A DNA stretch of 64,000 bases. It comes from Merismopedia glauca CCAP 1448/3. GTDB taxonomy: Bacteria; Cyanobacteriota; Cyanobacteriia; Cyanobacteriales; CCAP-1448. Where the stretch lies: assembly GCF_003003775.1 (NCBI RefSeq), contig NZ_PVWJ01000005.1, forward strand, positions 1 through 64,000, in the 5' to 3' direction. The notes under the pieces were generated by a model. The model ran no database searches. It worked only from the letters and a program-made list of their open reading frames with translations, and had not been told where the DNA came from. Of the stretch, positions 38,015 to 57,418 are shown one piece after another. Each line of letters begins with the position of its first letter. Position 1 is the first letter of the stretch. Position numbers and translations under genes: made by a program.

Positions 38015-39265
38015 CTAATTCTGTCGTCTCCAAACTTTAATTGTTTGCTCTCTTCCGCCACTAATTAATGTTTCTCCATCTGGACTAATAGCGATAGATG
38101 TAACACCTCTGCGATGTCGTTCGGGAAAGGTTGTTCGTGATTCTTTCGTAGCAATATTCCATTCTATAATTGTTCCATCATTGCTTCCACTGACTAAAGT
38201 TTTACCGTCTGGATTAAATACCAGACAAGTAACTGCATCGGAATGTTGTCGCAGAGTTTGAGGTAGTTCTCCGTTATTCGGATACCAAAGTTTAATAGTA
38301 TTATCATTGCTGCCGCTAGCTAGGATTTCTCCATCTGGACTAAATGCTAGGGTATAAACAGCGTCTTGATGTGCTGAAAGCGTGCCCAAACATCTTTTTT
38401 CAGCTACATCCCATAATTTGATGGTTTTATCGTAGCTACAACTAGCAATAATTCGGCTATTTTGGGGGTCAAAAGCGACACAGGTTACTTTGTCAGAATG
38501 TCCAGATAAATTAGCGATTTCTCTTCCCGTTTCTACATCCCATATTTTAATGTCTTGGTTATCATTGGCTGCTAATAATTTAGCGTCTGGACTAAATGCA
38601 ATCGAGTCAAAACCCGCCACATCAAGGAAGTTACTCAACAGAGTTTTACCAAAGGTATGAATTGGGTTGACTGTGCCTAACTGCCAAATATTTATTTGAT
38701 AAGCTTTACAGGCAGCTATTCGCTGACCATCGGGACTAATTGCTACTGATGTAAACCATAAATCAAAAGTATCTGTCAGCGAAAATGGCAGCGAAATCTT
38801 TTGTAAGATATTCCATGTATTTGTCTGCCAACGCTTAATGATTTGATTGCCACCACTAATAAAATATTCTTGGTTAGAGTTAGGACTAAAAGCTAATTTT
38901 AATCCATAACGCATCACAGATTGTTGAGAAAAATCAGTTAACGGTTTAGCTAATTTATCTATTAGGCTAATTCCGGTAGATTGAGTATAATCATTCTCAG
39001 TCAAACTAGCTACGCATCGCCAATTTACTTGTTGAATAGCTTTAACTAAAGCTTGGATTGCTTGTTCGTGCCACTGCTGGTAAATGCGATCGCCTATGTG
39101 GATCTCTTTACCTTCCCCAATATTGACGTTATACTTACCCAGTTGCAATGCTACCTGACGTGCGCTTGAACTCAATAACCGACGCAAGGTAGCAAGATCT
39201 GCTTCAGTCTGATTACCAGTAGCAATGCGATCGATAATACTACTTATATCGTCGGGGTTGGTCAT
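38015..39265 (-). CDS. WD40 propeller protein with GKYNVNI adaptor module
   Basis: 416 residues. The N-terminal ~75 residues hold the shared module (IIDRIATGNQTEADLATLRR, then LGKYNVNIGEGKEIHIGD). About seven WD40 repeats follow (~120-416; for example SPDGEILASGSNDNTIKLW and SPDGETLISGGREQTIKVW), enough for one propeller. In families of this kind the propeller senses a partner and the short N-terminal domain recruits an effector. It is the first of seven module-carrying genes; it is separate from the next operon and may be its sensor. Confidence 0.85.
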   Translation of the reverse strand: MTNPDDISSIIDRIATGNQTEADLATLRRLLSSSARQVALQLGKYNVNIGEGKEIHIGDRIYQQWHEQAIQALVKAIQQVNWRCVASLTENDYTQSTGISLIDKLAKPLTDFSQQSVMRYGLKLAFSPNSNQEYFISGGNQIIKRWQTNTWNILQKISLPFSLTDTFDLWFTSVAISPDGQRIAACKAYQINIWQLGTVNPIHTFGKTLLSNFLDVAGFDSIAFSPDAKLLAANDNQDIKIWDVETGREIANLSGHSDKVTCVAFDPQNSRIIASCSYDKTIKLWDVAEKRCLGTLSAHQDAVYTLAFSPDGEILASGSNDNTIKLWYPNNGELPQTLRQHSDAVTCLVFNPDGKTLVSGSNDGTIIEWNIATKESRTTFPERHRRGVTSIAISPDGETLISGGREQTIKVWRRQN

Positions 39266-40204: not shown

Positions 40205-43200
40205 CTATTGTTGTAACCTAGGATCGTTTCTCCCTGTATGTAGCCAATAAATAGGTGCTAGTAAACCAAACGGTTTCCATTCCGCTGGATTATCAAGTAC
40301 CCCTATAGTTCCTCTTTCATCTGTGCGAACAAATGTAAAATTTGGTCTGGGAGGTTTCCCCATAACGCCAAAAGAAGAACAAGCAAAATAAGCAATTTTA
40401 CATTTCCATGATTGGCTCCATCTTTGAAAATAATTTTTTGTATTTGGAAATTTTAAAGCCATTAATTCCTGTACTTTATGACGATGATTCCATAGCAATG
40501 GTTCTTCATATTTAGAAATTACAACAGCTATCCTATACTGACTTAAACGTTCTTTTTTATTATCCAAGCGTTGAACTATTTCTTTTGATAAGCTTATAAA
40601 GCTTTCTGTATATCCTCTATCATTTCTAGTATTACCATCAATTAGGAATAATAATTTTGATACAGTTGCACAGTCATCAAGATATTCATCATATAATCTA
40701 CTATCTTGTCGATGATTTCTTAAATCCTCGAATAGCTCTCCTGGATACTCCTGAAGAGAAACATTCATCTCTATATTTTCACCTCTAATAGCGGAAAGAG
40801 GTTGTATAACCAAACTAGGTTTTAATAAAATTTTAAAGCTGCAAAATGGTAGATCTACGAGAACATCTACATATGTTTGTGGCAGTGGTAATCCTTGTTT
40901 TAAGATATTTTCTGCATCAGATAATAATCTTTGAGATTCGATATTTTGAGGAAAAACTTGAAAGGGAATATCAGAATTTCTCTGTGACAAGGAAGCCAAC
41001 GCAGCCATAAAAGTTGTTTTTCCAGCACCTCGATCCCCAATAATTCGGATACTATTATCATCATGCTTATTTTTCAGCATATTATTTTGATTACTTATTT
41101 TGTCAAGCAACTGTTGATTATGAGTAACTGATGAAGTTTTTTCTAGAATTTCATTATTCGTAACAGATTCGCTAACTTTATTTACTTGTAAAGTAAAATT
41201 ATCTAGCTTATTTTTTAAATCGTTGCGAGAAAAAAGATAATATCTAATTCGTTTATTTTGACTTGGCAAATATCTTGGTAGATGTCCTTGAGGAGCATCT
41301 AAACTAAAAGTATGTTCGCTCCACTTTAACCATTCATTTTTATCTTTTATATACCAGCCTACATGCTCACCAAATTTATTATAAATTTCAGCATCATAGT
41401 ATCTAGGTTGACCACCAACGCTTAACCATATTTGCTTTTGTACACTAAATCCAAATCGTCCGTTGCTATATTTAAACCAAAGCTCGTCAATAGTTTGTAA
41501 ATCTTTAGAGGGAAATCTTTGCATATCAACCTCATCAAGCCAATCTCTCTCCTCGTGTCCAGATGCTTGAATCATTACCCTTGCTGTTTCTTCATCAGCT
41601 TCTTTCCATTTCTCGGCTGCTAGTAAGTCACTTAATCGAGTGTAGTCAATTCCTTCGTCTGAAAGCAGCTTAAATTTAGTTTCCAGTAAATCAGCAAACT
41701 TTGCATACTCCCCGCCCAAACGCCTCAGCACCTGAGCCGTAACCGTCGCCAAATAACCAACATCCCTACTAACCTCACTATCCCTAACTTGTTGCGGATT
41801 CCTCAAAACAGCAGCAAAATCCTCTAACGACAACCCTGCTTTCTTCGCTACATATTTCGACACCTCATCCACTACATTCAGCACATATCCTGAAGGAACG
41901 GAATCAACTAATAATTCCCGTACCCCATTGATAAACTCGTACCGAACGTAATTAGGATTAGTCTCGGCATTAATTTCAGATAGTGGCTTTAACAATCCTC
42001 CTAAAAACACCTCAGCTACATGAACTTGTTGAGATTCTTTTAACAGGGCTTCTTGAATCAAACGCACCACGGGTAAACTAATTACAGGTGCAGCCGCCAA
42101 CAATCCCGCCAATTTACGCGCCATTGGAGAAGCTGTCACCCGAAACGCCTGGACGCGCTGTTCTGCATTCAGTTGACCGTAATCCAGATTTAATAATTCC
42201 CTCCCTTGGCTAACAGGAGGTGGATCTAACTTAAATAAATATCCCGATGTCCAAATACTGCCCTTTCCTGACAACATTTGCGCCCAAGTTGCTACCTTAT
42301 CCGCTTCTAAAGTAAATACAGGAACTTTAACCCCTCGCGTCTCCTCCAGTTCGTCCCACAATGACACTTCTTTAGCGATTAACTTCTGGTTAAACTCCCC
42401 AGGATTCAACCCCTGCAACCGCACTTCTGAAGCCCTGCCTAAAGCCGTTCTCTTCCACAACCATTTGGGAAGCATCTGGACAATTGCCAATGAACCTTGT
42501 TTTGCCCAGAGTTCTAAGGTAGCCGTCACTTTTCCATTGCGCCACAGGGATGACACGCAATCGCTCACTACCAACACCAAACGCCGACCACTGGGGTCAA
42601 TTAATTCCTTGGGACTGCGAGGAGTTTGATTTTTAGCTGCTGCACCGATACCGCGACGAATCTGCACTCGTTCGTTTTCATCTGCAATCAGTCCCCATAC
42701 CCGCACATCTCGGAAAATGCCATAGTTTTTCAGCAGCCGTTCCAATTCCCTAATGGTGTGTCTCCAAATCTGCATGGAGATTCCCTCGTCCACCACTAAT
42801 TCCAAATCCAACCAAGGTTCTAAGGTGGGTCTTAAAACGGGCAGCCACAGCCCTTCATCGGCAATTCGTTGGGTGGTAGCCGCTTCATCTAACACCAAGG
42901 TTGTACCGGAGGGAATACGGCGCATTAAGGGTTTTAACGCCCGTGCTAAGGTTAGAGGTTCGCGTAAAGAAGGGGCATCGGGGACTTTAAAGGACAATTC
43001 CGACCCGACAAGGTTTTGCCCTTGATTTCGAGGGTAAATACCCGCTTTGGGTTTCTCGAATTGCTTATTGTCCGATCCTACCCCTGCATCTGAGGCATTT
43101 TGAGGTAATTGTTGAGATATTTCTGGTTCTAACGGTTTAATGGGGGCGATGGGAAGATCGTTGTTTAACTCTGGTGTAGCAGTTGACTCAGATTGAGATT

Positions 43201-43294
43201 CTGGCATTTGCAGCGCCAGCCAAATCGTATCAGCAATTTCCTCGGCTGACATTTCTACTTCTTGACTCAACGCTGCAATTAAGCGATCGATCAT
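40205..43294 (-). CDS. SAV_2336-like protein fused to a C-terminal P-loop GTPase-like domain
   Basis: 1029 residues. Residues ~110-400 (LTLARALKPLMRRIPSGTTL, LDLELVVDEGISMQIWRHTI, LVLVVSDCVSSLWRNGKVTA) match SAV_2336-type proteins, a vWA-like component of cyanobacterial VMAP-MoxR systems. Residues ~745-1029 form a separate P-loop domain: RIIGDRGAGKTTFMAALASL, LQEYPGELFEDL as a switch-like segment and AVVISKYEEP at the place of the base-recognition motif. The fusion links a vWA-like sensor to a nucleotide switch. The ATG overlaps the MoxR stop, so the products are likely made together. Confidence 0.75.
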   Translation of the reverse strand: MIDRLIAALSQEVEMSAEEIADTIWLALQMPESQSESTATPELNNDLPIAPIKPLEPEISQQLPQNASDAGVGSDNKQFEKPKAGIYPRNQGQNLVGSELSFKVPDAPSLREPLTLARALKPLMRRIPSGTTLVLDEAATTQRIADEGLWLPVLRPTLEPWLDLELVVDEGISMQIWRHTIRELERLLKNYGIFRDVRVWGLIADENERVQIRRGIGAAAKNQTPRSPKELIDPSGRRLVLVVSDCVSSLWRNGKVTATLELWAKQGSLAIVQMLPKWLWKRTALGRASEVRLQGLNPGEFNQKLIAKEVSLWDELEETRGVKVPVFTLEADKVATWAQMLSGKGSIWTSGYLFKLDPPPVSQGRELLNLDYGQLNAEQRVQAFRVTASPMARKLAGLLAAAPVISLPVVRLIQEALLKESQQVHVAEVFLGGLLKPLSEINAETNPNYVRYEFINGVRELLVDSVPSGYVLNVVDEVSKYVAKKAGLSLEDFAAVLRNPQQVRDSEVSRDVGYLATVTAQVLRRLGGEYAKFADLLETKFKLLSDEGIDYTRLSDLLAAEKWKEADEETARVMIQASGHEERDWLDEVDMQRFPSKDLQTIDELWFKYSNGRFGFSVQKQIWLSVGGQPRYYDAEIYNKFGEHVGWYIKDKNEWLKWSEHTFSLDAPQGHLPRYLPSQNKRIRYYLFSRNDLKNKLDNFTLQVNKVSESVTNNEILEKTSSVTHNQQLLDKISNQNNMLKNKHDDNSIRIIGDRGAGKTTFMAALASLSQRNSDIPFQVFPQNIESQRLLSDAENILKQGLPLPQTYVDVLVDLPFCSFKILLKPSLVIQPLSAIRGENIEMNVSLQEYPGELFEDLRNHRQDSRLYDEYLDDCATVSKLLFLIDGNTRNDRGYTESFISLSKEIVQRLDNKKERLSQYRIAVVISKYEEPLLWNHRHKVQELMALKFPNTKNYFQRWSQSWKCKIAYFACSSFGVMGKPPRPNFTFVRTDERGTIGVLDNPAEWKPFGLLAPIYWLHTGRNDPRLQQ

Positions 43295-44337
43295 CTATCC
43301 TCCGCGCTGGTTAAGTATTTCATCAACACCTCAACCAAGTCCTTTTCATCTCCTGCTTCCGGTTTAAACTCGCGAGTGACGATATAAATCGCATTCAGGA
43401 GTTGGTCTGTTGCCAAGTCGCCCCCTGGTCGTAATTGTATAAACTTCTCGATTAATTGCTCTATTTTCGCTTTATCCTGTGTCACCACATCATTACCTAA
43501 ATGTGCCTTGACAATATCCTTCAAAGCCTTGGCATCGGGTTCGTAGGGCATATTTAAGCGCAGACAACGCCTGAGAAAAGCAGGAGGGAAATCTCGTTCG
43601 CCGTTGTTAGTCAACACTATAAGGGGAAAATTATGACAGCGCACTCGCCCGTTAATAATGGGAACATCGATGCCATCATAGGTGCGAACCTCTACCCGAT
43701 TCACTTCTTTAGCAATCCGAGATAATTCCGGTATTTCAAACTCTCCTTCTTCAAACAAATTGAGGAGATCGTTGGGTAAATTAATATCGCTTTTGTCTAT
43801 TTCATCAATTAGCAAAACACGAGGACGACGGGCAGGAAGCAGGGCTGTACCCAAAGCCCCAAGCTGAATGTAGCGACCGATATCTTTACTTTTATCGCCC
43901 ATTTGCACGTCTTGCAGGCGAGCGATCGCATCATAACGATACAATCCTTCTTGTAAAGTAGAACGTGCGGTAATATACCAAGGCAATACAGTTCCCAATT
44001 TCAATTCGTAAGCGACTGCATAAGCTAAAGAAGTTTTACCCGTTCCTGGCTTGCCCGTGACTAACAAAGGTCGTCTCAAATACAAGGCAGCATTGACCAT
44101 ATTAATAACACTATTTCGGTCATTAATCTTATCGGTATGAATCCGAAAACTTTGCCCTCTTTCCTTATCCCTTACCTTCTCATCTACCCTCTCACAAAAC
44201 TTTTGCCATCGTTGTTCTATTTCTCGAACTATTGCCTCATCGGTGCCAATAAATTTACGCCAACTTGGAGGTGGAGGAAGGCGATTAATATCATTGTGAG
44301 GTTCGCTATTACCTTTAAATATTTTCCAGTCAGTCAT
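43291..44337 (-). CDS. MoxR-family AAA ATPase
   Basis: 348 residues. Walker A TGKPGTGKTSLAY (~95-107), Walker B RVLLIDEIDKSDINLPN (~170), sensor 1 LIVLTNNGERDFP, and an arginine-finger-like AFLRRCLRL. MoxR ATPases remodel or chaperone partner proteins, typically together with a vWA protein. Here it lies between a VMAP gene (22-bp gap) and a SAV_2336-like gene (4-bp overlap), completing the three-part arrangement known from cyanobacterial conflict loci. Confidence 0.9.
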   Translation of the reverse strand: MTDWKIFKGNSEPHNDINRLPPPPSWRKFIGTDEAIVREIEQRWQKFCERVDEKVRDKERGQSFRIHTDKINDRNSVINMVNAALYLRRPLLVTGKPGTGKTSLAYAVAYELKLGTVLPWYITARSTLQEGLYRYDAIARLQDVQMGDKSKDIGRYIQLGALGTALLPARRPRVLLIDEIDKSDINLPNDLLNLFEEGEFEIPELSRIAKEVNRVEVRTYDGIDVPIINGRVRCHNFPLIVLTNNGERDFPPAFLRRCLRLNMPYEPDAKALKDIVKAHLGNDVVTQDKAKIEQLIEKFIQLRPGGDLATDQLLNAIYIVTREFKPEAGDEKDLVEVLMKYLTSAEDR

Positions 44338-44359: not shown

Positions 44360-45910
44360 TTACTGTCCAGGCGCGATTAATTCAACCATTACGTCAGGAG
44401 TTAAACGATAGGGATTTTCCCAAAGGATGGCTAAGTGAAACCCTAAATGTTCCTCGGTTTGTGCGTCAGCTTTTTCTCTAGTCTGTCTTACCGATTCACA
44501 TAAATAACATAATGGTTTAAAAGTTAAGATTTCATCGAGTGCAGTTACTCGATCTAAATTAGGAATATCATTTCTAATCCAAATAGCAATAGGTGTTGTT
44601 GCTTGTAAAATCGCTCTAAATAAATCTTTTCTCATAGATTCAGGATGAGCGCAAGTAACTTTAAGTCCAACTTTATCTTTTAAGTTACTCCTCAATAACT
44701 TCCAGTTAAAACTCTCCATTTCTTGAAGATGTTCAAATAAATCTGGCAGAGGTTCATTCTGTAAAATATCCCTAACTTTATCCCAATATTCATACCATTG
44801 AGACAGATAAGAATCTAGGTAATCAGGATTAAGACGTTCTAGCGATCGCAGTCTAATTGGATATTGAATTCCTAAAGTAATTTCATCTGCTATTGGATCG
44901 GGAGTTTTCCAGCGATCTATCTCGATGCACATCAAGTTACTAGGTAAAAAAAACTCTATAATCAAGCGATACTTTTTGCCTCTAAGATACTTAAGAGCTT
45001 TTTTGATGAACTTATTTAATTGTTGTTCAAGAAACTTATTTAACTGTTCTTGTTTATTGAGAGAATTAATATTTTTGTTGAACTTCCACAAAATACCTTT
45101 TTGCTGTTCGCTTTCTTGAACCAGAGGTTCAAACTTAGATATATCTTTAACTGAATCATCAATAATCAACCAAGCATTTAACAAAAACTGCTCGTTAGAA
45201 TCTTCATTAGGTTCAAGAGTGACAATTAAATATGATTCTAATTTTCTCGATTGGGTAGAAAAAAGATCTGTTGATGATTTATTCTTGATATTTTCTGGAT
45301 GCTTTTTTGAGGCTAATTCGTTCGATATCTCCTTGAGTTGATGGCGAATTTCTAGAGGTACATTTTTATCTTGACTTAAACGTTCAAAAAATTCAGGTAA
45401 TCGTCTGAACTGTTCGATTGTCTGTAATCTTTGTGCGATGTCATTTTCGGCTAAATTCCACACACCAGCATCGGGAGGTAAGGAATCTTGGTAGGCTTGT
45501 TGGATGCTTTCTAGAGGGATTTTACCCCAATCTAAATCTGGCAATGATTCTTGACGAAAACTGCTTGATTTGCTTTCTCCAGCTAACATTTGAATAAACG
45601 TACAATTTTTGTAAACATTTCGTTTATCAATATCTCTTCCTGCTGCATCTCCGCCTTGAGTATCTTGGTGAATACCGCTTGCTGCTTGAATGGCTTTAAC
45701 TATGGCTGCCATCGCTTCTTGATCCAGTTGGTTGTAGATGCGATCGCCTATATGAATTTTTTTGCCTGCTGGAATGTTGACGTTGTATTTGCCGAGTTGT
45801 GTCATGGCTTGGCGATCGCAGGCACTGAGCAACTGATGTAGAGCTACGATATCTGCATCAGTTTGCTGGTTTTTGGCAATGCGGTCGATTAATTCTTCAG
45901 GGTTAATCAC
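44360..45910 (-). CDS. VMAP protein with GKYNVNI adaptor module
   Basis: 516 residues. N-terminal module ELIDRIAKNQQTDADIVALH, then LGKYNVNIPAGKKIHIGD (~1-75). A middle helical region includes WGKIPLESIQQAYQDSLPPD. The C-terminal ~300 residues (LIIEFFLPSNLMCIEIDRWK, YPIRLRSLERLNP, ILTFKPLCYLCESVR, LGFHLAILWENPYRL) match the vWA-MoxR associated protein C-terminal domain. It heads the VMAP-MoxR-SAV_2336 operon. In the published model VMAP relays a signal between the ATPase/vWA pair and an effector; the module would choose that effector. Confidence 0.8.
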   Translation of the reverse strand: MINPEELIDRIAKNQQTDADIVALHQLLSACDRQAMTQLGKYNVNIPAGKKIHIGDRIYNQLDQEAMAAIVKAIQAASGIHQDTQGGDAAGRDIDKRNVYKNCTFIQMLAGESKSSSFRQESLPDLDWGKIPLESIQQAYQDSLPPDAGVWNLAENDIAQRLQTIEQFRRLPEFFERLSQDKNVPLEIRHQLKEISNELASKKHPENIKNKSSTDLFSTQSRKLESYLIVTLEPNEDSNEQFLLNAWLIIDDSVKDISKFEPLVQESEQQKGILWKFNKNINSLNKQEQLNKFLEQQLNKFIKKALKYLRGKKYRLIIEFFLPSNLMCIEIDRWKTPDPIADEITLGIQYPIRLRSLERLNPDYLDSYLSQWYEYWDKVRDILQNEPLPDLFEHLQEMESFNWKLLRSNLKDKVGLKVTCAHPESMRKDLFRAILQATTPIAIWIRNDIPNLDRVTALDEILTFKPLCYLCESVRQTREKADAQTEEHLGFHLAILWENPYRLTPDVMVELIAPGQ

Positions 45911-46075: not shown

Positions 46076-48409
46076 ATGAGTTCCAACCAAGACTTAAATG
46101 ACATATTCGATCGCCTAGTCAAGGGTGATGTCACCGAGGGGGATATCCAAAGCCTACGGCAGTTGCTCCAGGTACGTGAGGGGCAAAATACAGTTCAAAT
46201 CGGTAAATATAATGTCAATATTGCTGAAGGCAAAGATCTACACATAGGCGATACCTTCGGTGGGCTTTGCCAACGCGTTTATCAAGGAACGAATGCAGAG
46301 ACGATTCGGACTATTTTGCTAGAGGTACTTGCCCAAAACGATCGAGAAATAAAGGTTGATTGGCACGGGCTTAGTCAAACCATGCTGGGAGAACAGCAGC
46401 GACTCACCACAGACCCACTGACATCGGGTGAGGGAATTGCCTATCGAACCGAGCAGGTTTATGTCCCACTGGGATTGGTAGAGCGCAAGCGGCAAACTCG
46501 ACGACGTGAGGATGTTTCACCAGATCGGGGTTCAGAACTTTACCAAGAAACAGAAATTACCCAAACCTTTGAGCATCAGCAGTTTTTAGAGCAGGTACTC
46601 AAGCAAAGGCAAAGTCCCAAAAGCCAGGGAAAGCGCATTGCAATTATTGGAGAACCAGGGGCGGGGAAAACGACGCTGTTGCAGCAGATATCTCGATGGG
46701 TATCGGGGGAGATGGCGCAGTCGGTAGCGATCTGGGTGTCTTTAGCTGATTTGCAGGGGCGCGAACTGGAATCATATTTGTTCGAGGTATGGGTGCAGGC
46801 AGTAGCCCGAAAAGTCGGACAAGCTGAAGCATCTACTCAAGTTAAAGATGATTTTGTGGCTCAGTTTAACCAGGGGTTGGTGTGGCTGTTGCTGGATGGG
46901 GTTGATGAAATGCAGGCGACTGGGAGCAACCCGTTAGCAGAAATCGAACGGCAAATTCGCACGGGAACTTTACTACAACAAGCGAGGATGGTGCTTTCCT
47001 GTCGGTTAAATCTTTGGGATGGTGGCAGTAACGCCCTGGATTCCTTCGATAACTATCGCACCCTGGAGTTTTCCTATCCCCAGCAGGTGGAGCAGTTTAT
47101 TATCAACTGGTTCGGCTCTTTACCTTCAGCAGAAACACAGACAGGGCAACGGTTGTGTGCGGCGTTGAGGGAATCGGGAAAGGAAAGAATTCGAGATTTG
47201 GTGAAAAACCCTCTGCGGCTGACGCTGCTGTGTTTCAACTGGTATTTAGGCGAGGGTAAGTTACCGGAGACAAAGGCGGGGTTGTACGAGCAGTTTGTGG
47301 CGGATTTTTATGAGTGGAAGAAGGGGCAATTTGCGACGACAGGGGAGCAACGCAAGCGATTGAATGCAGCTTTGGGAGAATTGGCGCGGGAGGCGATCGA
47401 TAAGGAAGCAACGCGGTTTCGATTGCGACACAATTTTGTGTGCGAGTATTTAGGTGAGCCGGATGATGCAGATTCGTTGTTTGGATTGGCGTTGCGGTTG
47501 GGATGGTTGAATAAGGTGGGGGTGGATGGAGATAATCTCAGGAAGGGGGTGTATGCGTTTTTCCATCCCACTTTTCAGGAGTATTTTGCATCTAAAGATT
47601 TTTGCGATCGCGCTGATTTTTACAATCTTGCTAAGCATATAGGGAAGAATACTTGGAATGAGATATTTATATTGTCTCTAGAGATGGCAAATGACCCAGA
47701 TACACTAATGCGGTTAATGAAAAAGCAAACTGATGAGTTACTCAGTTCATGTGCAAAGTTACAGCAATTTTTGAGCTATACATATCAAAAATCAATGTCA
47801 GTCAATATTCCATATAAATATAAACCCGCAGCATTAAGAGCCTTTTATCTCAAGACTAATAGATGTTCTGGATTTTGCCCAAGTAACGATTTGGCTTTCG
47901 GAATCGATCCAACTTTAAGAAATGATTGTAGCGGAGGTACTTTTCATGGAATCTACGCTGATATTCACATATGTTTTCCTTCTCCTCCTCAAACAGAACT
48001 TCATTTAGATGAAACTCTTGATGCGATTCTTGCTAATGATTTAAACTCATCACCACCTTTTTTCTCACTCCGTTTTCTTGGAAGTGGAGTCGATCTCAAT
48101 TACAACTTTAAAAAGCTATTAGAAGACCATCTCGCTCAACTGCCAAAATCTGAAACATTTCAATGTTGGTGGAAAGAAAGAGGAAGTATATGGTTAAAAC
48201 ACCTAAGAAATCTATCATTGGAGTACCGCGCGGTTGGTCAAGATTGGCAATTTAGTGAAGAGCAAAAAGAATTACTTATGCGTTACTACAGTGCTAATCA
48301 ATTATTAGTACATTGCCTGAATAGCTGTAGTCGTGTAAGTAATGAAGTAAAAAAAGAAATTGAAACTACCTTATTGTTACCAGTCACCGCCATCGAAAAA
48401 GGCACGTAA
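46076..48409 (+). CDS. NACHT ATPase with GKYNVNI adaptor module
   Basis: 777 residues, divergent from the VMAP gene. N-terminal module: NDIFDRLVKGDVTEGDIQSL, then IGKYNVNIAEGKDLHIGD (~1-60). The module is interrupted after HIGD by seven residues (TFGGLCQ) from a 21-nt repeat. NACHT domain: Walker A IIGEPGAGKTTLLQQ (~190), Walker B VWLLLDGVDEMQ (~275), SCRLNLWD, NPLRLTLLC. The C-terminal ~250 residues are helical, sharing YKPAALRAFYL with the YKPTARRAAAMYF of the NACHT at 48613. These STAND ATPases oligomerise on sensing a trigger, often phage-derived, and bring effectors together. Confidence 0.85.
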   Translation: MSSNQDLNDIFDRLVKGDVTEGDIQSLRQLLQVREGQNTVQIGKYNVNIAEGKDLHIGDTFGGLCQRVYQGTNAETIRTILLEVLAQNDREIKVDWHGLSQTMLGEQQRLTTDPLTSGEGIAYRTEQVYVPLGLVERKRQTRRREDVSPDRGSELYQETEITQTFEHQQFLEQVLKQRQSPKSQGKRIAIIGEPGAGKTTLLQQISRWVSGEMAQSVAIWVSLADLQGRELESYLFEVWVQAVARKVGQAEASTQVKDDFVAQFNQGLVWLLLDGVDEMQATGSNPLAEIERQIRTGTLLQQARMVLSCRLNLWDGGSNALDSFDNYRTLEFSYPQQVEQFIINWFGSLPSAETQTGQRLCAALRESGKERIRDLVKNPLRLTLLCFNWYLGEGKLPETKAGLYEQFVADFYEWKKGQFATTGEQRKRLNAALGELAREAIDKEATRFRLRHNFVCEYLGEPDDADSLFGLALRLGWLNKVGVDGDNLRKGVYAFFHPTFQEYFASKDFCDRADFYNLAKHIGKNTWNEIFILSLEMANDPDTLMRLMKKQTDELLSSCAKLQQFLSYTYQKSMSVNIPYKYKPAALRAFYLKTNRCSGFCPSNDLAFGIDPTLRNDCSGGTFHGIYADIHICFPSPPQTELHLDETLDAILANDLNSSPPFFSLRFLGSGVDLNYNFKKLLEDHLAQLPKSETFQCWWKERGSIWLKHLRNLSLEYRAVGQDWQFSEEQKELLMRYYSANQLLVHCLNSCSRVSNEVKKEIETTLLLPVTAIEKGT
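46253..46273 (+). repeat. 21-nt small dispersed repeat (family A) inside HIP1
   Basis: ACCTTCGGT followed by GGGCTTTGCCAA. The flanks GCGAT (46248-46252) and CGC (46274-46276) rejoin to GCGATCGC when it is removed, giving GDRVYQG as in paralogues. It adds TFGGLCQ in frame to the adaptor module of the NACHT protein. Confidence 0.82.
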
Positions 48410-48612: not shown

Positions 48613-50646
48613 CTAATGCTTGGTTCGTAATACACGATCTTCGATTTCCTGACAAAATTGTGGTGAACATGGCTCTGCAATCTTCAAGCACTCAACTATT
48701 AGCTTGGTGGATAATAAATAATTTGCCAAAGAATCTTGCTCACTTGTAGACAACTCAGTTATCCATTCTGGATCTACCTGAAGGGAAGTAAGCAATGTTT
48801 GTCGAATAAGCTCTGGAGGAGAAAGATGGGTTTTAAAGTCTTGACCTGCATCAGGAAATCTCTTTAGTGTGTTTTTCAGATTTGTAATCAAATTTTGAGA
48901 CAAAGAGCGATCTAAAATCCAGTTTTCCATTGTTTGAGATTCTCTAAGCTTAAAGTCATTCTCAAGAAAATATTGAATTGTACTAACCCCCATTTCGTAG
49001 AAAGTATGCAAGAAGTAAGGAGGATCAATTTGATTGCCGATAATGGCAACAATTTCCCATATGTCATCTTGTTGAAAATCTCGGTTCAGCAATCGTGCAA
49101 GATCAGATGCTAGATTAATAAATCGATCGAAATCACCAACAGAAAACGTTTGATCTTGATAAAGTAATGTGACTAAATCAAGAATAAAATACATAGCCGC
49201 TGCACGTCTAGCTGTAGGCTTGTAATTGTTGGGTTCGGAGGTGCTTTGCTCTAACCAATTCAGTAAATTTTGTAGTTTTGTACAAGAATTGATATAGATC
49301 TGAGATGTTTTTTCTATTCCCAACAATAGAGTCTTAGCTTCCTGAGACTCAGCTAGGAGCAGAAATACTTCCCTCCAGTAGCCTTCTGTAATTTGTCTTA
49401 ATAATTTTTCCCACTCAGTTTGATGACTAAACCACTTTGCTACCAAATATTCCTGAAGCGTAAGATGTGAAAATGACCAAACTTTTGTAGCACGCTCAAT
49501 CAATAACCCATGCTGAGATGCGATCGCCCTTAATACTCCCCGACTTTCCTGTCGCTCAATTCCCAAAAACTCCCCAATATACCCCTCCAATTCCTCCTGC
49601 TCGAACAACACATACTGTTCTTGCTCAAACTTTTTCACCGCAACATAACTCAACAGATCCAACTTTCGCTCCACTGACAAATCCCGATAAACCTCATCCC
49701 GCGCCACTTCCCGCGATTTGTCCCACTGCACCAACAATAACTCCAACCCCTCCTCATACAACTTGGAACGCTTCGAGTAAAATTTCCCCGTTTGCTTGAA
49801 TACCGCACAAGTTAAACTCAACAAAATCGGCGTAATCGCCAATTCCCGAATCGGTTTGTTCTCCTCCCTAAACAACTGTTCCAAAAAATCCCGCGCTTTG
49901 TTCTTCCCCGTATCCCCACATACCGTATCAAACCAATGTTCTACAAACGCTCTCACCTGCTGCTCATTAAAATCTGCCACCTCCACATAATCGAACCTTT
50001 CAAACCGCGATTCCTGGCTTTGCGTTCGACAAGTCACCACCACCAGCACTTGGGAATAAGCACGAGCAAACCGCTTGATTTCCCTGGTAATTTGCTTTCC
50101 TGCTTCCCCCGTCACCTCATCCAACCCATCCAGCAACACCAAAGCTTTACCCTGGTTTAGCACTAATTCCATATCTACATTACTCAACCGCCAAAGCTGT
50201 CCCAAAAACTGCTCCAAGTTATAAGCGTACTTGTGTCCATCGTCCACAAACTCCCGCAGCTTAATCAAAACAGGAATTCGCTGTGCTTTTAATTTTCCGG
50301 CATTGCACTCGGTTACAATTCTTTGCAGATATGTCGTCTTCCCCGAACCAGGTTTACCCACCACCATCAGGTTAGTATTCTGTTCCAGCACAGCCAACCC
50401 AGAAACGCGCTGCTGTTCCTTACCCAAGCCAATCCGATCCAAGCTACGGTAGCTGGAATTACCTGTTGTAAAATCCTGCCACAAATCATCCAGTTCCGAC
50501 CTGCGGCTGCTGCTAAGTGACTCCAGGATATTGACATCCACAAACAAATCCCCCAAAGGAACCCAATGGTCTATTCCCCATAACGGCATCGTCCCGTGCA
50601 AGCGTTGGATGTCATCGTGGATGCGCGATCGCACCTGTTGCACCAA
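48613..50646 (-). CDS. NACHT ATPase, probably the 3' half of a CHAT-NACHT fusion
   Basis: 677 residues from a TTG; the first ATG is at 50589. Neither has a ribosome-binding site. The N-terminus (RIHDDIQRLHGTMPLWGIDH, VPLGDLFVDVNILESL) is the typical linker before NACHT. Walker A VVGKPGSGKTTYLQR (~97), Walker B ALVLLDGLDEVTG (~165), VVTCRTQSQ, ITPILLSLTCAVF, then a helical C-terminal region (YKPTARRAAAMYFILDLV). The frame is open upstream to 50679, exactly the -1 frame at the slippery heptamer ending the CHAT gene. Read through, the joint protein is ~986 aa: adaptor module, CHAT protease, NACHT, helical domain. Confidence 0.82.
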   Translation of the reverse strand: MVQQVRSRIHDDIQRLHGTMPLWGIDHWVPLGDLFVDVNILESLSSSRRSELDDLWQDFTTGNSSYRSLDRIGLGKEQQRVSGLAVLEQNTNLMVVGKPGSGKTTYLQRIVTECNAGKLKAQRIPVLIKLREFVDDGHKYAYNLEQFLGQLWRLSNVDMELVLNQGKALVLLDGLDEVTGEAGKQITREIKRFARAYSQVLVVVTCRTQSQESRFERFDYVEVADFNEQQVRAFVEHWFDTVCGDTGKNKARDFLEQLFREENKPIRELAITPILLSLTCAVFKQTGKFYSKRSKLYEEGLELLLVQWDKSREVARDEVYRDLSVERKLDLLSYVAVKKFEQEQYVLFEQEELEGYIGEFLGIERQESRGVLRAIASQHGLLIERATKVWSFSHLTLQEYLVAKWFSHQTEWEKLLRQITEGYWREVFLLLAESQEAKTLLLGIEKTSQIYINSCTKLQNLLNWLEQSTSEPNNYKPTARRAAAMYFILDLVTLLYQDQTFSVGDFDRFINLASDLARLLNRDFQQDDIWEIVAIIGNQIDPPYFLHTFYEMGVSTIQYFLENDFKLRESQTMENWILDRSLSQNLITNLKNTLKRFPDAGQDFKTHLSPPELIRQTLLTSLQVDPEWITELSTSEQDSLANYLLSTKLIVECLKIAEPCSPQFCQEIEDRVLRTKH

Positions 50647-50669
50647 GTCATCAGCCTGATTTTCTGCCG

Positions 50670-51572
50670 TTAATCGGACTTTTTTTTAAGGTGTTTGAAT
50701 ACTGGGGTATGTTCTTCTGGGATTCCTTGCAGGGCGATCGCATCGCAGCCACCGTGATAAGCATCCTCATACGACCAACCAGCACCTAATTCATCATAAA
50801 AACCAACTGCAAACTTAATCGCTGCATCGTCTCCAATTGCGCTATTCATACCGACTACATAATCGATATGTTGGGCGATCGCCGAAGCTTGAATCTCCGA
50901 ATAACAAGCGTTGAGAACCACACATTCTAATCCGCGATCGGCAAATCGTTTAAACAAGTTGGCTAAAGCTTCTGTGGGAACAAGTTGCGCTAACCCGGCA
51001 TCATTTTCCAAAACTAATCCATCATCTCCTGAACCATGCCCGCAAAAGTGAACGATCTGGGGGGTAAAATCCAACAAAGCACGACGTAGATCGTCGGGAC
51101 GAACCGCCCAGCGTTGCTGTAAAGTAAACCTATCTCTATGCTGCGACCTTCGCAAACCCTCATCAATTTCTCGCACTTCTTTATCTAGGCGCAACCTACC
51201 TTCATTGGTGGGGCTGGAGGCTAGGACTAAAATGGTTTTACGGGAGCTATTTTGAGGATTTGCTGGTTGAGCCAGGTTCTGAAACTCTTCTTTGAGTATA
51301 GAGCGAACAACTTCTCGAATATCTGCGGCGTTAGAACCCTGAATTACAGCACGAGCAACTTCTCGAATCGCTTCGGCATCAAGTCCTTGGTAAGTGCGAT
51401 CGCCAATATGTATGTCTTTTCCTTCCCCAATATTGACGTTGTACTTTCCTACTTGCAGATTTTGAATCCCGCCACTATTTAACCACTGACGTAAAACTTC
51501 AACATCGGTATCGGTTTGAGTTCCATTGAGGATGCGTTGAATAATGTCGTTGAGGTTACTGGGGTTCGCCAT
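50670..51572 (-). CDS. CHAT protease with GKYNVNI adaptor module
   Basis: 300 residues. Module in ~1-65: NDIIQRILNGTQTDTDVEVL, then VGKYNVNIGEGKDIHIGD. The CHAT domain (~110-290), a caspase-like cysteine protease, has the catalytic pair His179 (VHFCGHG) and Cys223 (VVLNACYS). It ends HTPVFKHLKKKSD just after AAA AAA AAG. A -1 shift there continues as VRLTAENQADDL into the NACHT gene. The short product would be an isolated protease; the long one would tie it to the NACHT sensor. Confidence 0.88.
   Translation of the reverse strand: MANPSNLNDIIQRILNGTQTDTDVEVLRQWLNSGGIQNLQVGKYNVNIGEGKDIHIGDRTYQGLDAEAIREVARAVIQGSNAADIREVVRSILKEEFQNLAQPANPQNSSRKTILVLASSPTNEGRLRLDKEVREIDEGLRRSQHRDRFTLQQRWAVRPDDLRRALLDFTPQIVHFCGHGSGDDGLVLENDAGLAQLVPTEALANLFKRFADRGLECVVLNACYSEIQASAIAQHIDYVVGMNSAIGDDAAIKFAVGFYDELGAGWSYEDAYHGGCDAIALQGIPEEHTPVFKHLKKKSD
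50679..50685 (-). promoter_or_regulatory. Slippery heptamer A-AAA-AAG at the CHAT/NACHT junction
   Basis: Zero-frame codons AAA AAA AAG TCC GAT TAA end the CHAT gene. The -1 frame from base 50679 is open for 688 codons through the NACHT gene, while a TAA lies in that frame immediately upstream of the A-run. A-AAA-AAG is the heptamer used in E. coli dnaX. A nine-A tract instead of eight would also fuse the two genes. Confidence 0.55.
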
Positions 51573-51725: not shown

Positions 51726-52190
51726 ATGAGTAAGATTTACCAAATTTATCTTGATGTTTGTTGTTTGAATCGAACCCTAGACGATTTGGAACAAATTCGG
51801 ATTCGGATAGAGGCTGAAGCAGTAACCGAGATTATTCAAAATTGCGAAGATGGCAAGTGGATATTGATGAATAGCGATATTATTGAATTTGAGGTTAGTC
51901 AACATTCAGACTCTTTTAAACAAGAAAAAGTCCGATCGATCCTAACTTTAGCAAATATTTATATTGAATCAAGTGAAAATATCGATCTCAGAGCAGAAGA
52001 ATTAATGAGGTTGAGTTTCAAGTATCATGATGCTTTACATTTAGCTTTTGCAGAAGCAGGAGGTGCAGACGTATTTCTGACAACTGACGATCGACTTCTG
52101 AGGAAAGCGAGACAATTTTTCCATCTTTTCTCAATAGAAATCGAAAATCCCACGATTTGGTTAATGAATATTTTATCAACTGAGGAATAA
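51726..52190 (+). CDS. PIN-domain toxin-like protein
   Basis: 154 residues. IYLDVCCLNRTLDDLEQIRI (first Asp), NSDIIEFEVSQHSD (Glu), YHDALHLAFAEAGGADVFLT (Asp) and TDDRLLRKA (Asp) keep the PIN acidic set. The family is predicted RNase, often in toxin-antitoxin pairs with the toxin first. Followed four bases later by a 63-aa partner. Confidence 0.78.
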   Translation: MSKIYQIYLDVCCLNRTLDDLEQIRIRIEAEAVTEIIQNCEDGKWILMNSDIIEFEVSQHSDSFKQEKVRSILTLANIYIESSENIDLRAEELMRLSFKYHDALHLAFAEAGGADVFLTTDDRLLRKARQFFHLFSIEIENPTIWLMNILSTEE

Positions 52191-52194
52191 AATA

Positions 52195-52386
52195 ATGAAA
52201 CTAGCGGAAATTAGACAGCAAGGATATAAAGCCCTAATTGATGCTCTAGGTGTAGCTGGAACGCTGAGGTTTTTACAGCAGCTAGAAGTGGGTTATGGTG
52301 ACTATACTAAAGAACGCCATCAATGGCTAGATCGACTCACAATAGATGACTTTCGTAGCTATGTTAAACAAAGAAAAGATGAATAA
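52195..52386 (+). CDS. Small antitoxin-like partner of the PIN protein
   Basis: 63 residues, MKLAEIRQQGYKALIDALGV then LRFLQQLEVGYGDYTKERHQ. The GAGGAA ribosome-binding site sits in the end of the PIN gene, so translation is coupled. Small proteins of this type commonly accompany such PIN genes in cyanobacteria. The antitoxin role is inferred from position. Confidence 0.65.
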   Translation: MKLAEIRQQGYKALIDALGVAGTLRFLQQLEVGYGDYTKERHQWLDRLTIDDFRSYVKQRKDE

Positions 52387-52473: not shown

Positions 52474-55400
52474 TTACCAGCTACGTTTTTCTAAATCTTC
52501 CTGTGCTTCTGCACGTTCAACATCTTGTTGAAGTGATTGAATTACTCGCTTCGCAAACTGCCGAACTTGAAAAATGTCATCTTTTTGCCAAGGTGATACT
52601 TCTTCAATACGTTGTTTATAAAAATTAGAAAAGCCTCCCATAATTGCGCCTGGAGTAAGATGAATGGCAGCACCGACAGATGAAAGGATATTTTCATCCT
52701 GGGTACGAGTAATAATTTCTCGACTCAAATTATAAAAGTCTTCTCCAGTATTGAATTCGCGTAATATTGTAGCAATTGCTTTTAACTTGTCTATATTTTT
52801 TGCCTCAACCCATTCCATTAAAATGTCGTAGAGTTGACCTTTCAGATTTAGCGATAATGCTTTCAGTAGCGAAGGAGCTTTAAGACTAAGTAAAAAGTCA
52901 TCTTGTATCGTCCAGTCTCTTACTCGACGAAGAAGATCGGGATACTCTGGTTTAAAGTCGATATTATTGAAGGCACGAGAAAAAGGTGTAGGAAAAGCTT
53001 GATAGTATTCCTTCTTAGAATACTTATTCGGTTTGAGCTTTATTCGACGTTCGATAAAATCGATAACTAGCGTTGGCTGGCTTTCTCCTAAACGTGCCAA
53101 GCATTCTTCAACTTTATAATCTAGATAAGGAAGTCGCTCAAAATTTTCAATTATTTCCCACAAATCTTGAAGGTTATTAAATTGAATAGCCCATGTTTCT
53201 CCATCTTGTTCGTAATTAGGTGATGATACAATCTCAGCTACTTGATGTAGCGTATTTTCATTATCACGAGTAGCTAGAATTTTTAAAAGTTCTACTGCTA
53301 GTTCGGAATTGTAGGGTGCAAGTCGGCTTATTGACCAGAAAAGTTCTCGATCTACTATTACAGATTTTTTGGCAACAAGCTGACGAAGAACTTTCCATTC
53401 AGTTTCAAGCTGTGGCTGACTCCAATCTATAAAATGATAACTCAAAGCGATCGCCCGCCAAAGTATGGGATCGTCACCTTCAATCCACTCCTGAACATAT
53501 AGTCTTGCTTTTTCTCGATCTCTAAAACGAATTCCTGCTAAAGCGAAACCCAGATGATGTTTTAACTCCAGGTTTCGACTCAAAACTTGCTCTACGAATT
53601 CACTAGCAAAATCAAGACGTTTTTGTCCAATAATTCTCAGGATATCGTTTAAACCAAATGCTTTATCTTCATTGATAAGACGTATCTGTTTTAGGATTGA
53701 CTCTAGTTCTTGAATTGCCTGCTCTAGACTAGAAAGCGAGTCAACATAATCGTCAATTCTTTCCTGCCGTTTTCGATCTGCTTTTTCCCAATTTAGCAGT
53801 AGCAGGTTATCATCTTCATCATATCTGCATCTGCCGATTAAAAGTCGATAAAGTTGATAGCCTTTATGATTTTGTAATTGTTGCTGAAGCAGATTAAGTT
53901 CCTCAGCTTGATATCGATCAAACCGCTTTATATGTATTACCCATTCCGCTATCTCATCCAAAATAGGTAATTCTGCATTAGACAACACTTTATACAAAAA
54001 AAACCGAGCCGTCATCGCGCAATTAGCATTCAAAAAATTGAGCAATTCAGCCGAAATATCCTCTCCTGGCGTTATATGAGGAGTTGCACCACACGAAGCT
54101 CGAACGATTTGCAATCGAGTTGATAGATTGGATGTTTGTTCGTAAGCTTCATAGAGAATATTTAGCGATCGCTCCCGGATTTGACGTAAAGAATCGCTAA
54201 GCCCCAGTCTCCCTTGCTGAAAGATAATACCAAAAGGTTTAATCGGATCTGTTTCAGCACTATGAAATTCGATTTTTAGCATAGACTGAATCAACGGAAG
54301 ACTGATAGCTAGATTAATAACGAAGTTTTCTTTCAACCAATCTGCTATTAAGTCTAGTAATAAAAGTTGTACTCCATAAGGCTTTCGTGGTTTAAATTCA
54401 GCAATCTTTAATAAAGCTTCGCTGGCTTTTTTTCTTACTTCTCCATATTCTGTTGTTGCCAGTTGATAGGTAGCAATTTTATGCAAATAGTTAATAGAAT
54501 CGCGCAAGCCACCTTGATAGATTGTACGTTCTAAAATTTCGACAACTTTTTTCAAAACAAATTCATGCTTAATCTCATAAGATCCCCAAAATTTACCCTG
54601 AATTGTTTCGGATTGAGGATCTGCATCTTCAATAATGAAAGTTGCGATATTCAAAATATCATCTGGTTTGAGATAGGCAACATCCCTCAAGCAATCGAGT
54701 AACTTAGAACGAAATGAATTTCCCTCCTGTCCTAAAGCTTGATACAATTCATTCATTTTTTGACCGAATAATAAACCTGCTTCTTTAGATTCACCTTTAA
54801 CTTCAGCTTCAGCCAGGTTAGTCAAAATTGCTTGAGGTTTGAGATTAAAAAATGGTTCGAGAATTAGTTTATGATAGTCAGCTTGTTTTGTTTTGGAATT
54901 AAAGAAGTGTTCGATTAAAATATGGTCGGCTAAAACTTCAGAAGCTATTTTAATAGTTTTGTAGTACCGCTCTATCAAACCCGCTTCTAACAACCGCGAT
55001 ATTATTTTCTCTTCATCAAAAGAAGAAATATCAACTATTTCGTTAATTTTACTTTGGATTTCCTGTTTGCTGAGATCTACTGTTCCTAAAGCAGAAAGTA
55101 TTTGCAAGTAACAAATGTATTTTTGCTCGGAATCAGAACTGGTTGATTCTGCTTTGGTTAAGTCTTTAATAATTTCATTTAAATAGCGAGTTAGCACTTG
55201 CTCCCGATTTAAATTTACTAAAGGCTCTCCTTTTTCGAGTAAACCTGCGGCGATACCAGCGATTAATGGATTTCCTTCTGCAATTTTGACCAGAACATGA
55301 CGCATGTCGTCATTGTTAATTTGATATGGTGCTTGTTGTAAATATCGATCTATATCTTCATTTTCTAGAGGGGGGATCTCTATTTCATCAATTTGCCCGT

Positions 55401-56370
55401 CAGGTAACGATCCCAATTGATAAATAAGCGAATCCTTGAAGACACTGCGCGTAGCGAAAATTAGTTTGACTTTGCCAGCTAGTTTAGGATTAACCAAAAC
55501 TTCGCGTAATTGATGAATGCGATCGCAGCGATGGGCATCGTCTACCACAATTATATGGTGATGATTACAATCTAAAGAAGCGAGTTCTGGCTCTATAGAT
55601 TCAGTTTCATTGCGAAGATACCACAGGTTTGCTTCTTCTGGAATTATGTCAGCAAGGGATAATAACAAACGAGTTTTGCCAATTCCACCAGAACCATGCA
55701 AAATACTGACACCGATACCTTCTGACAAATTCTGTTGTAGCTTGTTTAAAATAGCTTCTCGTCCTACAAATACTCCTTTGTGGCTAGCAAGAGCAGCTTG
55801 TTCGGCTCGGTCTGAAAATTCGGGGGGTGTAAGTAAAGCGTAAAATTTACGAGCTTCTAAAACTTGCTGAATTACTTGGTGAATCGTTTCTGCCTCTGCA
55901 CCTTGATAAATGCGATCGCCAATTTGAATCTCTTTTCCTTGACCAATGTTGACATTGTATTTCCCCAACTGAATCAATTTTTTGCTATCGTCTACGATTA
56001 ATAACTGGCGTAGCAAAAGCACATCCTCATCGATATATTCTCTTGTAGCAATACGTTCTATAGTTCGCTCTAATTTCGTCAGTGGATTAAACTCAGCTAA
56101 AGTAGAATCAGGTAATTCTTGTCCAGCACGATTTAATATTGCTGCCCAATAATCTAATCGACTTTGACCATCCCAACGATCATCATCGTTTTCTAGTATT
56201 GTTCCTGTCGCGCGCCCTCGATCAATAAACTCTTTTATTTCCTTAAATAATTCCGACGATTCAGCTTCTTCCCGATAGCGTTTTAGCAGCTTACTGTGGA
56301 AATCACGTAATGCAGCTAAAGAGGAAAAGCCATCTTGATTATTAGTCGTTGAAGAATTTGATTCCATCAT
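52474..56370 (-). CDS. Large STAND-like ATPase with GKYNVNI adaptor module
   Basis: 1298 residues from the ATG at 56370. The N-terminal ~100 residues are a helical domain (SLAALRDFHSKLLKRYREEA). The shared module is at ~105-170: RTIERIATREYIDEDVLLLR, then LGKYNVNIGQGKEIQIGD. P-loop ATPase: Walker A LHGSGGIGKTRLLL (~220), Walker B HHIIVVDDAHRC, sensor KLIFATRS, then GNPLIAGIAAGLLEKG. The last ~850 residues are helical, probably HEAT/TPR-like. The architecture fits a threat-sensing ATPase with the module as effector recruiter. It overlaps the upstream 366-aa gene by 29 bp. Confidence 0.78.
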   Translation of the reverse strand: MMESNSSTTNNQDGFSSLAALRDFHSKLLKRYREEAESSELFKEIKEFIDRGRATGTILENDDDRWDGQSRLDYWAAILNRAGQELPDSTLAEFNPLTKLERTIERIATREYIDEDVLLLRQLLIVDDSKKLIQLGKYNVNIGQGKEIQIGDRIYQGAEAETIHQVIQQVLEARKFYALLTPPEFSDRAEQAALASHKGVFVGREAILNKLQQNLSEGIGVSILHGSGGIGKTRLLLSLADIIPEEANLWYLRNETESIEPELASLDCNHHHIIVVDDAHRCDRIHQLREVLVNPKLAGKVKLIFATRSVFKDSLIYQLGSLPDGQIDEIEIPPLENEDIDRYLQQAPYQINNDDMRHVLVKIAEGNPLIAGIAAGLLEKGEPLVNLNREQVLTRYLNEIIKDLTKAESTSSDSEQKYICYLQILSALGTVDLSKQEIQSKINEIVDISSFDEEKIISRLLEAGLIERYYKTIKIASEVLADHILIEHFFNSKTKQADYHKLILEPFFNLKPQAILTNLAEAEVKGESKEAGLLFGQKMNELYQALGQEGNSFRSKLLDCLRDVAYLKPDDILNIATFIIEDADPQSETIQGKFWGSYEIKHEFVLKKVVEILERTIYQGGLRDSINYLHKIATYQLATTEYGEVRKKASEALLKIAEFKPRKPYGVQLLLLDLIADWLKENFVINLAISLPLIQSMLKIEFHSAETDPIKPFGIIFQQGRLGLSDSLRQIRERSLNILYEAYEQTSNLSTRLQIVRASCGATPHITPGEDISAELLNFLNANCAMTARFFLYKVLSNAELPILDEIAEWVIHIKRFDRYQAEELNLLQQQLQNHKGYQLYRLLIGRCRYDEDDNLLLLNWEKADRKRQERIDDYVDSLSSLEQAIQELESILKQIRLINEDKAFGLNDILRIIGQKRLDFASEFVEQVLSRNLELKHHLGFALAGIRFRDREKARLYVQEWIEGDDPILWRAIALSYHFIDWSQPQLETEWKVLRQLVAKKSVIVDRELFWSISRLAPYNSELAVELLKILATRDNENTLHQVAEIVSSPNYEQDGETWAIQFNNLQDLWEIIENFERLPYLDYKVEECLARLGESQPTLVIDFIERRIKLKPNKYSKKEYYQAFPTPFSRAFNNIDFKPEYPDLLRRVRDWTIQDDFLLSLKAPSLLKALSLNLKGQLYDILMEWVEAKNIDKLKAIATILREFNTGEDFYNLSREIITRTQDENILSSVGAAIHLTPGAIMGGFSNFYKQRIEEVSPWQKDDIFQVRQFAKRVIQSLQQDVERAEAQEDLEKRSW

Positions 56371-57418
56371 ATACAATCATTTCAATAATACAGGTCAGTG
56401 GTTCATCTACTACTCGTAAGTCTTCAAATAGTCTTAGTAGGTCTTGATCGACTTTATAGAAATAGTTACTCGCACGTCTGCGATAACTGCGGAAACATCT
56501 TTTTATTCGATCAAGGTTTTGATTTTCTACAAACAATGCAGTTTCTAAACTTTTTCCATCTTGTCTTAAAAATTGCGCCCAATTTTCTTCAGAATTACCG
56601 CATTGTTTTTCTATCATTGCTTTTAAATCTATCCATGATTGTTCTAATTCTAAATAATCTCGGTCAATAGTAGCTTCAATTAGACGTAGGTTCAAATCTA
56701 TTAATTGCCAATCGTCATGATTTTTGATGAGAATACTAATGTATTTTTGTAAGTTATCTAAGGCTTCAACACTATTTTTTAGCCGCTCAATCTTATCTGA
56801 TTCTAGATTGCGAGTAACTAAATTATCTAATATAGAATTTATTGATTTTATAAGGTTTGATAAATACAAAGATTTTGCTGCTACATTAAGAGTTGTATTT
56901 ATTTGAGAAGGATGAATAGCAAGTACTCTATTTAAAATTTTAATGGCTTTTTGAAGTCGATCTTTATCAGAATGCTCGATAGCATTTTCGAGTTTTTCTA
57001 AAGCTTCTTCAAGTTGTGGCAAACATGAAATTGTAGAACTCTGAAAATTGACCTGACTACTAATATCTTGTAGTCGATCAATATTATGTTCGAGCGTGAA
57101 TTTATGTTCTATTAATGTATCAATACTTATAAGATCTTGAGGAAAATGTCTTGCTTCTTGAACAATGCCTCGATAACAATGGAACTCAATAGTATGCAAT
57201 ATATCGTGTAACTTTTTATAAGTTCTTAAAAGATCGATTTGATTGTATATATTTTTAAAATCACTACGACAAAGAAGAACGAGATCGTAAACTCGCTCGT
57301 CTGACATCAAAGTGGCTAAAGCAATAAAACCTCTACGAATCATCTGGCTTTGGTCGCCAATATTAATATTTTCTCCATTTTGAATATTGATGATGTATTT
57401 AGCATCTTGATTTTCCAT
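56342..57418 (-). CDS. Helical protein with short N-terminal GKYNVNI-like motif
   Basis: 358 residues from the ATG at 57418 (a GTG eight codons upstream is in frame). The first ~22 residues, AKYIINIQNGENINIGD, are a short version of the adaptor motif. The rest is almost entirely helical and coiled-coil-like (QLEEALEKLENAIEHSDKDR, LKNSVEALDNLQKYISILI). It lies between the caspase and the large ATPase and overlaps the latter. A bridging adaptor is plausible; no family is recognised. Confidence 0.6.
   Translation of the reverse strand: MENQDAKYIINIQNGENINIGDQSQMIRRGFIALATLMSDERVYDLVLLCRSDFKNIYNQIDLLRTYKKLHDILHTIEFHCYRGIVQEARHFPQDLISIDTLIEHKFTLEHNIDRLQDISSQVNFQSSTISCLPQLEEALEKLENAIEHSDKDRLQKAIKILNRVLAIHPSQINTTLNVAAKSLYLSNLIKSINSILDNLVTRNLESDKIERLKNSVEALDNLQKYISILIKNHDDWQLIDLNLRLIEATIDRDYLELEQSWIDLKAMIEKQCGNSEENWAQFLRQDGKSLETALFVENQNLDRIKRCFRSYRRRASNYFYKVDQDLLRLFEDLRVVDEPLTCIIEMIVYDGIKFFND

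Follow-up and report, generated by a model that had tools for sequence, protein, structure and literature searches.

In the stretch of Merismopedia glauca CCAP 1448/3 DNA analysed here (64,000 nt; the window), the gene of a caspase-like CHAT effector ends in a run of adenines, and the gene of a NACHT sensor is open in the -1 frame from this run onwards. The same out-of-frame arrangement recurs in relatives, and a CHAT-NACHT product that depends on a slip is well supported by this comparative evidence. We consider it probable that the A-tract is a site of programmed slippage of either kind, transcriptional or ribosomal, which would give a free effector as well as an effector-sensor fusion from the same locus.

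The joint in the window

The EAD10-CHAT ORF (50670..51572, minus strand) encodes 300 aa with the tail HLKKKSD* and comprises EAD10 at residues 1-76 (Pfam EAD10, 2.3e-34) and the CHAT caspase-like domain at residues 100-271 (Pfam CHAT, 2e-10). The conserved His and Cys residues are present in the motifs HFCGHG and LNACY, consistent with a predicted protease. As the original prediction had stated for its last codons, the minus-strand junction reads CAC CTT AAA AAA AAG TCC GAT TAA, and the slippery tract (50679..50687, minus strand) consists of exactly eight A (50687-50680) followed by G at 50679, with the heptamer A AAA AAG at 50685-50679 of the same strand. The zero-frame stop TAA (50670..50672, minus strand) follows 7 nt past the run, and its position relative to the run is kept in nearly all -1 loci. 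Another TAA, in the -1 frame, lies directly 5' of the run (50686..50688, minus strand); hence, a productive shift in the window copy is only possible inside the eight-A run.

From 50679 the -1 frame is open for 688 codons until the stop at 48613 (48613..50679, minus strand) and encodes a NACHT STAND ATPase (Pfam NACHT, 1.6e-20; C-terminal NCH2, 1.4e-7; Walker A GKPGSGKT). The codons 5' of the first possible start, VRLTAENQADD (50647..50679, minus strand), can be read solely after a slip. Counting from 0 at 50679, possible start codons are TTG at codon 11 (position 50646) and GTG at codons 12 and 15, and no Shine-Dalgarno sequence beyond a 3-nt AGG was found at them. The claims that the -1 frame runs without stop through the NACHT gene, and that this gene lacks a good start or ribosome-binding site of its own, were thereby borne out. 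Decoding without a slip gives 300 aa, whereas the slipped product would be the longer one, an EAD10-CHAT-NACHT fusion of ~986 aa.

The rarity of the A-run was dropped as evidence, since A8-G occurs at 94 sites in the 5.2 Mb of the window genome and is about as common as its reversed control (87 sites). What goes beyond chance is the placement of A8-G at a gene end, the -1 ORF of 688 codons and the conservation in relatives.

Conservation of the joint in relatives

Scanning of genomes with the NACHT half resulted in 24 loci, to which further loci were added from other searches (L numbers below). Sixteen CHAT loci whose partner is long or cut by a contig end, namely the window and 15 others, show the -1 relation, with tracts of A9 in 14 cases, A8 in the window and A10 in L216; five additional -1 CHAT loci have truncated partners. 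In the 15 loci outside the window the zero-frame stop usually lies at most 7 nt from the tract, and one of these loci is situated on a complete Nostoc plasmid. Plasmid pn3 of Nostoc sp. UHCC 0926 has an A9 locus, where NCBI annotates two CDS. A miscount of the homopolymer, which the original prediction had left as an alternative, was rejected, because independent assemblies, complete plasmids among them, show the -1 arrangement again. It had also been proposed to compare the junction in homologues, nine A being taken as the sign of a simple fusion. Nine A are indeed present, but the relatives read CTA AAA AAA AAG (nine A after CT) where the window has CTT, i.e. a T/A substitution and no indel, and they still stand in the -1 relation instead of forming a simple fusion.

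The tract itself can change while the frame relation persists: in L216 it was altered by substitution but remains long (A10 before C), and in L182 the AAG is lost and A9 is followed by T (A AAA AAT), in both cases with the -1 frame intact. In CHAT relatives that have no partner, runs of A do not exceed 6, and several of these relatives encode the same KKK using AAG. The association between tract and partner is suggestive only: three of three independent contrasts in the tree point in the expected direction (p = 0.25). A naive Fisher test of tract against partner (p = 3e-8) was set aside as inflated by shared ancestry, because the tree leaves only these three contrasts. Furthermore, a scan of 1.39 Mb for ORF-end runs of at least eight A followed by another open frame of at least 150 codons gave, among the cases listed, 18 in the -1 and two in the +1 relation, and the NACHTs of both +1 cases are truncated.

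Ratios of dN/dS for the closest pairs of -1 loci, window copy included, amount to 0.17-0.26 for the NACHT half and 0.07-0.30 for CHAT, which indicates purifying selection on both halves. At the nucleotide level, the two AAA codons preceding the final tract codon show no variation among the -1 loci; in 70 CHAT columns with invariant amino acid and synonymous codons, the third base is invariant in just seven.

These data bear on the idea that an ancestral CHAT-NACHT fusion lost one base and that the window copy is its decaying remnant. In-frame fusions do exist, with A10 in L172, L176 and L184b, A7 in L177 and other indels in L087 and L088, and they indicate that the fused protein exists in nature and is tolerated; L172, L176, L177, L087 and L088, together with the decayed copies L091, L095, L171, L173 and L174, are what one would expect if fusions break and decay. 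However, diverged species repeatedly show the -1 state together with intact sensors and with dN/dS well below 1, the window included, and the window tract differs from its A9 relatives by a substitution, not by an indel. A private broken fusion, as the original prediction had offered it, is therefore highly improbable.

The main rival is phase variation, in which the A-tract would mutate in the DNA at replication and thereby switch heritably between free CHAT (A9) and fused CHAT-NACHT (A10 or A7). It could explain why close relatives differ (A10 in L172 against A9 in L174, A10 in L176 against A9 in L180, A10 in L184b against A9 in L187) and is in line with the additional A7 and A8 variants. 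Nevertheless, the -1 state predominates among the loci with long partners, while +1 states accompany broken sensors (the NACHT is truncated in both +1 loci L091 and L095), and L216 retains the -1 relation via base substitutions without any indel. The three near-clonal Tolypothrix/Fremyella records all have A9 as well, a weak argument as they represent almost one strain. We regard phase variation as unlikely and programmed slippage as the preferred explanation of the tract.

Several copies depart from the general pattern and count against programmed slippage. In L212, L213 and L214, on plasmids of Tolypothrix PCC 7712 and 7601 and Fremyella NIES-3275, the A9 joint is intact and the NACHT is broken by TGA at codon 17. 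L187 (G487:C132) carries Trp in place of the catalytic Cys of CHAT (LNAWY) and retains A9 and a -1 SAVED partner, L180 and L182 show no obvious N-terminal start, and the NB-ARC of L297 is interrupted. L178 (G411) and L190 (G429) have A9 at the CHAT end with the partner in frame, where a slip would truncate the product; by eye, these in-frame partners are a sulfatase-modifying-factor-like protein and a STAND-like protein. Other fusions were seen in passing. The in-frame CHAT-NACHT of L087/L037 (Calothrix rhizosoleniae) has A8, and a small insertion 3' of the run restores the frame. In L102 (G354:C82:83000-93000; NACHT match G354:C82:87600-87821) a CHAT N-terminal fragment (ILLLASSPADTARLRLDKQA) is joined straight to NACHT within a 1970-aa ORF, and L054 likewise has a CHAT N-terminal fragment directly fused to NACHT, as if the remaining CHAT had been deleted.

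Exchange of effectors and sensors around the joint

The proteins on both sides of the joint vary, while the -1 frame and the tract stay constant. Sensor partners past the joint comprise NACHT, NB-ARC (L022) and SAVED (L185, L187). Before the joint, effectors other than the EAD10-CHAT type include metallophosphoesterase (MPE)-CHAT, found in L285 and by annotation in L216, a DUF4062-like protein in L286 (24.3 bits against a cut-off of 24.7) and TIR in L297, where it is joined to NB-ARC. L285 and L286 are unexpected loci found in the 1.39-Mb ORF-end scan; the DUF4062-like effector is followed by NACHT, and the NACHT following the MPE-CHAT of L285 is a different one. A pattern search of 391 genomes of the order and 218 of the family, which are overlapping sets, gave 48 sites, 20 of them effector-sensor joints, in one of which the sensor is broken at codon 17; the TIR/NB-ARC locus L297 came to light in this way. 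The search pattern was modelled on known joints and is biased toward them. In the stretches examined in this search, none of the remaining sites combined an ORF-end position with an alternate frame open for at least 60 codons.

The exchanged partners also bear on the possibility that two separate proteins are made, the NACHT initiating by itself at TTG/GTG near the CHAT stop via translational coupling. Such codons exist at codons 9-15 of NACHT partners, and the two CDS annotated in Nostoc sp. UHCC 0926 correspond to this reading. But the starts lack a Shine-Dalgarno sequence, and the first start codon of the -1 frame comes at codons 55 and 74 in the SAVED partners, 49 in L286, 46 in L297 and 29 in the NB-ARC of L022, so that most partners outside the CHAT-NACHT type would be shortened or not made at all if they were initiated separately. 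Separate initiation would also leave the conserved tract and -1 frame unexplained, and we consider it extremely improbable.

Returning to programmed slippage, it seems rather likely, though held with less confidence than slippage itself, that we are dealing with a mobile slippery joint of multicellular cyanobacteria. At the seam of NLR-like effector-sensor pairs, A-tract slippage would give free and receptor-linked effector from one locus, with CHAT, TIR and DUF4062-like effectors and NACHT, NB-ARC and SAVED sensors being exchanged and the -1 frame kept.

Probable agent and products of the proposed slippage

A ribosomal shift of the E. coli dnaX type is characterized by a Shine-Dalgarno sequence ~10 nt upstream, a downstream stem-loop and a sole tRNA-Lys with UUU anticodon. 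Nothing Shine-Dalgarno-like was found by eye ~10 nt before the site in the window or the -1 loci. Folding of 75 nt downstream revealed no stem-loop stimulator either, with z-scores (from mononucleotide shuffles) of -0.19 for the window and -1.3 to +1.2 for the -1 loci, except L182 with -3.0. The window genome possesses both tRNA-Lys(CTT) and tRNA-Lys(TTT), i.e. the UUU anticodon is not the sole one, and tRNA-Lys(CTT) occurs in 10 of the 13 -1 genomes examined (the window and nine of 12 others). Nine consecutive A or T within a coding region have been proposed as a criterion for programmed transcriptional slippage (Baranov et al., 2005; PMC1088944), and two lysine tRNAs have been discussed as a possible reason for polymerase slippage at Thermus dnaX (PMC5009743). 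Most -1 relatives have nine A and L216 has ten; the eight A of the window fall short of this length, so that polymerase slippage is perhaps weak in this copy. A longer slipped product, another criterion of Baranov et al. (2005; PMC1088944), is seen here with 300 against ~986 aa.

Altogether, transcriptional slippage fits better than dnaX-type frameshifting and the polymerase is the more likely agent, because the tract is longer than the heptamer and L182 keeps A9 without AAG, because the search for a stimulator found none, and because a tRNA-Lys(CUU) exists. The dnaX-like -1 shift of the original prediction thus stands with regard to the slip-dependent product, for which the comparative evidence speaks, and to the heptamer, while the ribosomal mechanism becomes one option. 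A programmed ribosomal -1 frameshift on A AAA AAG, of the kind known from E. coli dnaX, is one version of the slippage reading and does not add to its weight. The exact heptamer occurs in the window and most -1 loci, and A8 is short for polymerase slippage, which makes ribosomal shifting possible in the window copy. Against it speak the missing Shine-Dalgarno and stem-loop stimulators, the second lysine tRNA, the A AAA AAT of L182 and a conserved tract longer than the heptamer, and we regard it as rather doubtful.

We infer from the sequences that the tract slips, mainly during transcription, and that its two products cooperate. In normal decoding, the stop two codons past the tract would release EAD10-CHAT as a free protein, a caspase-like effector that carries a recruitment domain. 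At times, one base would be gained or read twice during expression. The most likely cause would be that RNA polymerase inserts an extra A into the transcript of the tract (A10 instead of A9 in relatives, A9 instead of A8 in the window); a ribosomal -1 shift on the A AAA AAG heptamer is the alternative. The resulting EAD10-CHAT-NACHT protein of ~986 aa would be a receptor with built-in effector. As one example of joint action, a minority of fused NACHT receptors may nucleate complexes, and homotypic EAD10 contacts could bring free EAD10-CHAT to these, as part of the VMAP-type EAD10 system encoded nearby.

The EAD10 neighbourhood

The core of this neighbouring EAD10 conflict system is an EAD10-VMAP protein (44360..45910, minus strand; Pfam EAD10, VMAP-C, VMAP-M1), and a MoxR-like AAA ATPase adjoins its gene (43291..44337, minus strand; Pfam AAA and AAA_5, bpMoxR below cut-off). 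EAD10 is common to the CHAT protein and to the VMAP protein beside this MoxR-type ATPase, the combination looked for as the mark of an EAD10/VMAP-MoxR locus. Further EAD10 proteins are an EAD10-NACHT encoded by a single ORF without slip (46076..48409, plus strand), a 1300-aa protein with a STAND-like region (52474..56376, minus strand; nSTAND5 below cut-off) and an EAD10-WD40 protein (38015..39265, minus strand). Beside the MoxR gene, a 1029-aa protein carries GUN4 and DO-GTPase2 domains (40205-43294, minus strand; Pfam); Pfam found no vWA component at the EAD10/VMAP/MoxR locus. A 154-aa protein that resembles a PIN-domain toxin by eye (51726-52190, plus strand) is followed by a short ORF at ~52195-52386.

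Implications and comparison with known systems

If the proposed mechanism is true, slippage would set the ratio of a likely death effector to its immune receptor, whereas in other systems the effector/receptor stoichiometry is set by separate genes. Two-gene annotations, such as the NCBI record of the Nostoc plasmid, would then miss the receptor-effector fusion. Moreover, the joint is a short and testable sequence and provides a handle for finding more effector-sensor pairs.

Most known cases of programmed slippage concern transposases, viruses, secretion genes and dnaX. E. coli dnaX shares with the joint described here the heptamer A AAA AAG, the -1 frame and two products with the same N-terminus, but neither a Shine-Dalgarno sequence nor a stem-loop was found at the CHAT-NACHT joint, the window genome has tRNA-Lys(CUU), and the E. 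coli shift leads to the shorter product, the CHAT-NACHT shift to the longer one. Also close to the proposed mechanism are transcriptional slippage at Thermus thermophilus dnaX and the slippage cassettes of IS elements (PMC1088944; PMC5009743), with A-run slippage, two products with a common N-terminus and two lysine tRNAs; no stimulator was found at the CHAT-NACHT joint. They differ in that the long product of T. thermophilus dnaX is the zero-frame one, while the long CHAT-NACHT product needs the slip, and in that polymerase subunits or transposases are made instead of an effector and an immune sensor.

With regard to gene content, the window resembles the EAD and vWA-MoxR-VMAP conflict systems (Kaur et al., 2020, PMC7159879; PMC8195603), with EAD10 on CHAT, VMAP, NACHT, WD40 and other proteins at one locus. 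Frameshifting is not mentioned in the main text of either paper, nor is slippage in that of PMC8195603, the only one in which this term was looked for. The main text of the GeneTack survey (PMC3711429) mentions neither NACHT nor CHAT. Among open-access papers, we found none that combines CHAT, NACHT, frameshift and cyanobacteria.

Bacterial NACHT/STAND and SAVED effector proteins are generally described as one continuous ORF. The CHAT-NACHT joint is made of the same domain families as these immune proteins, and as in SAVED effectors such as CalpL (PMC11417357) a sensor is joined to an effector, but here the two halves meet out of frame.
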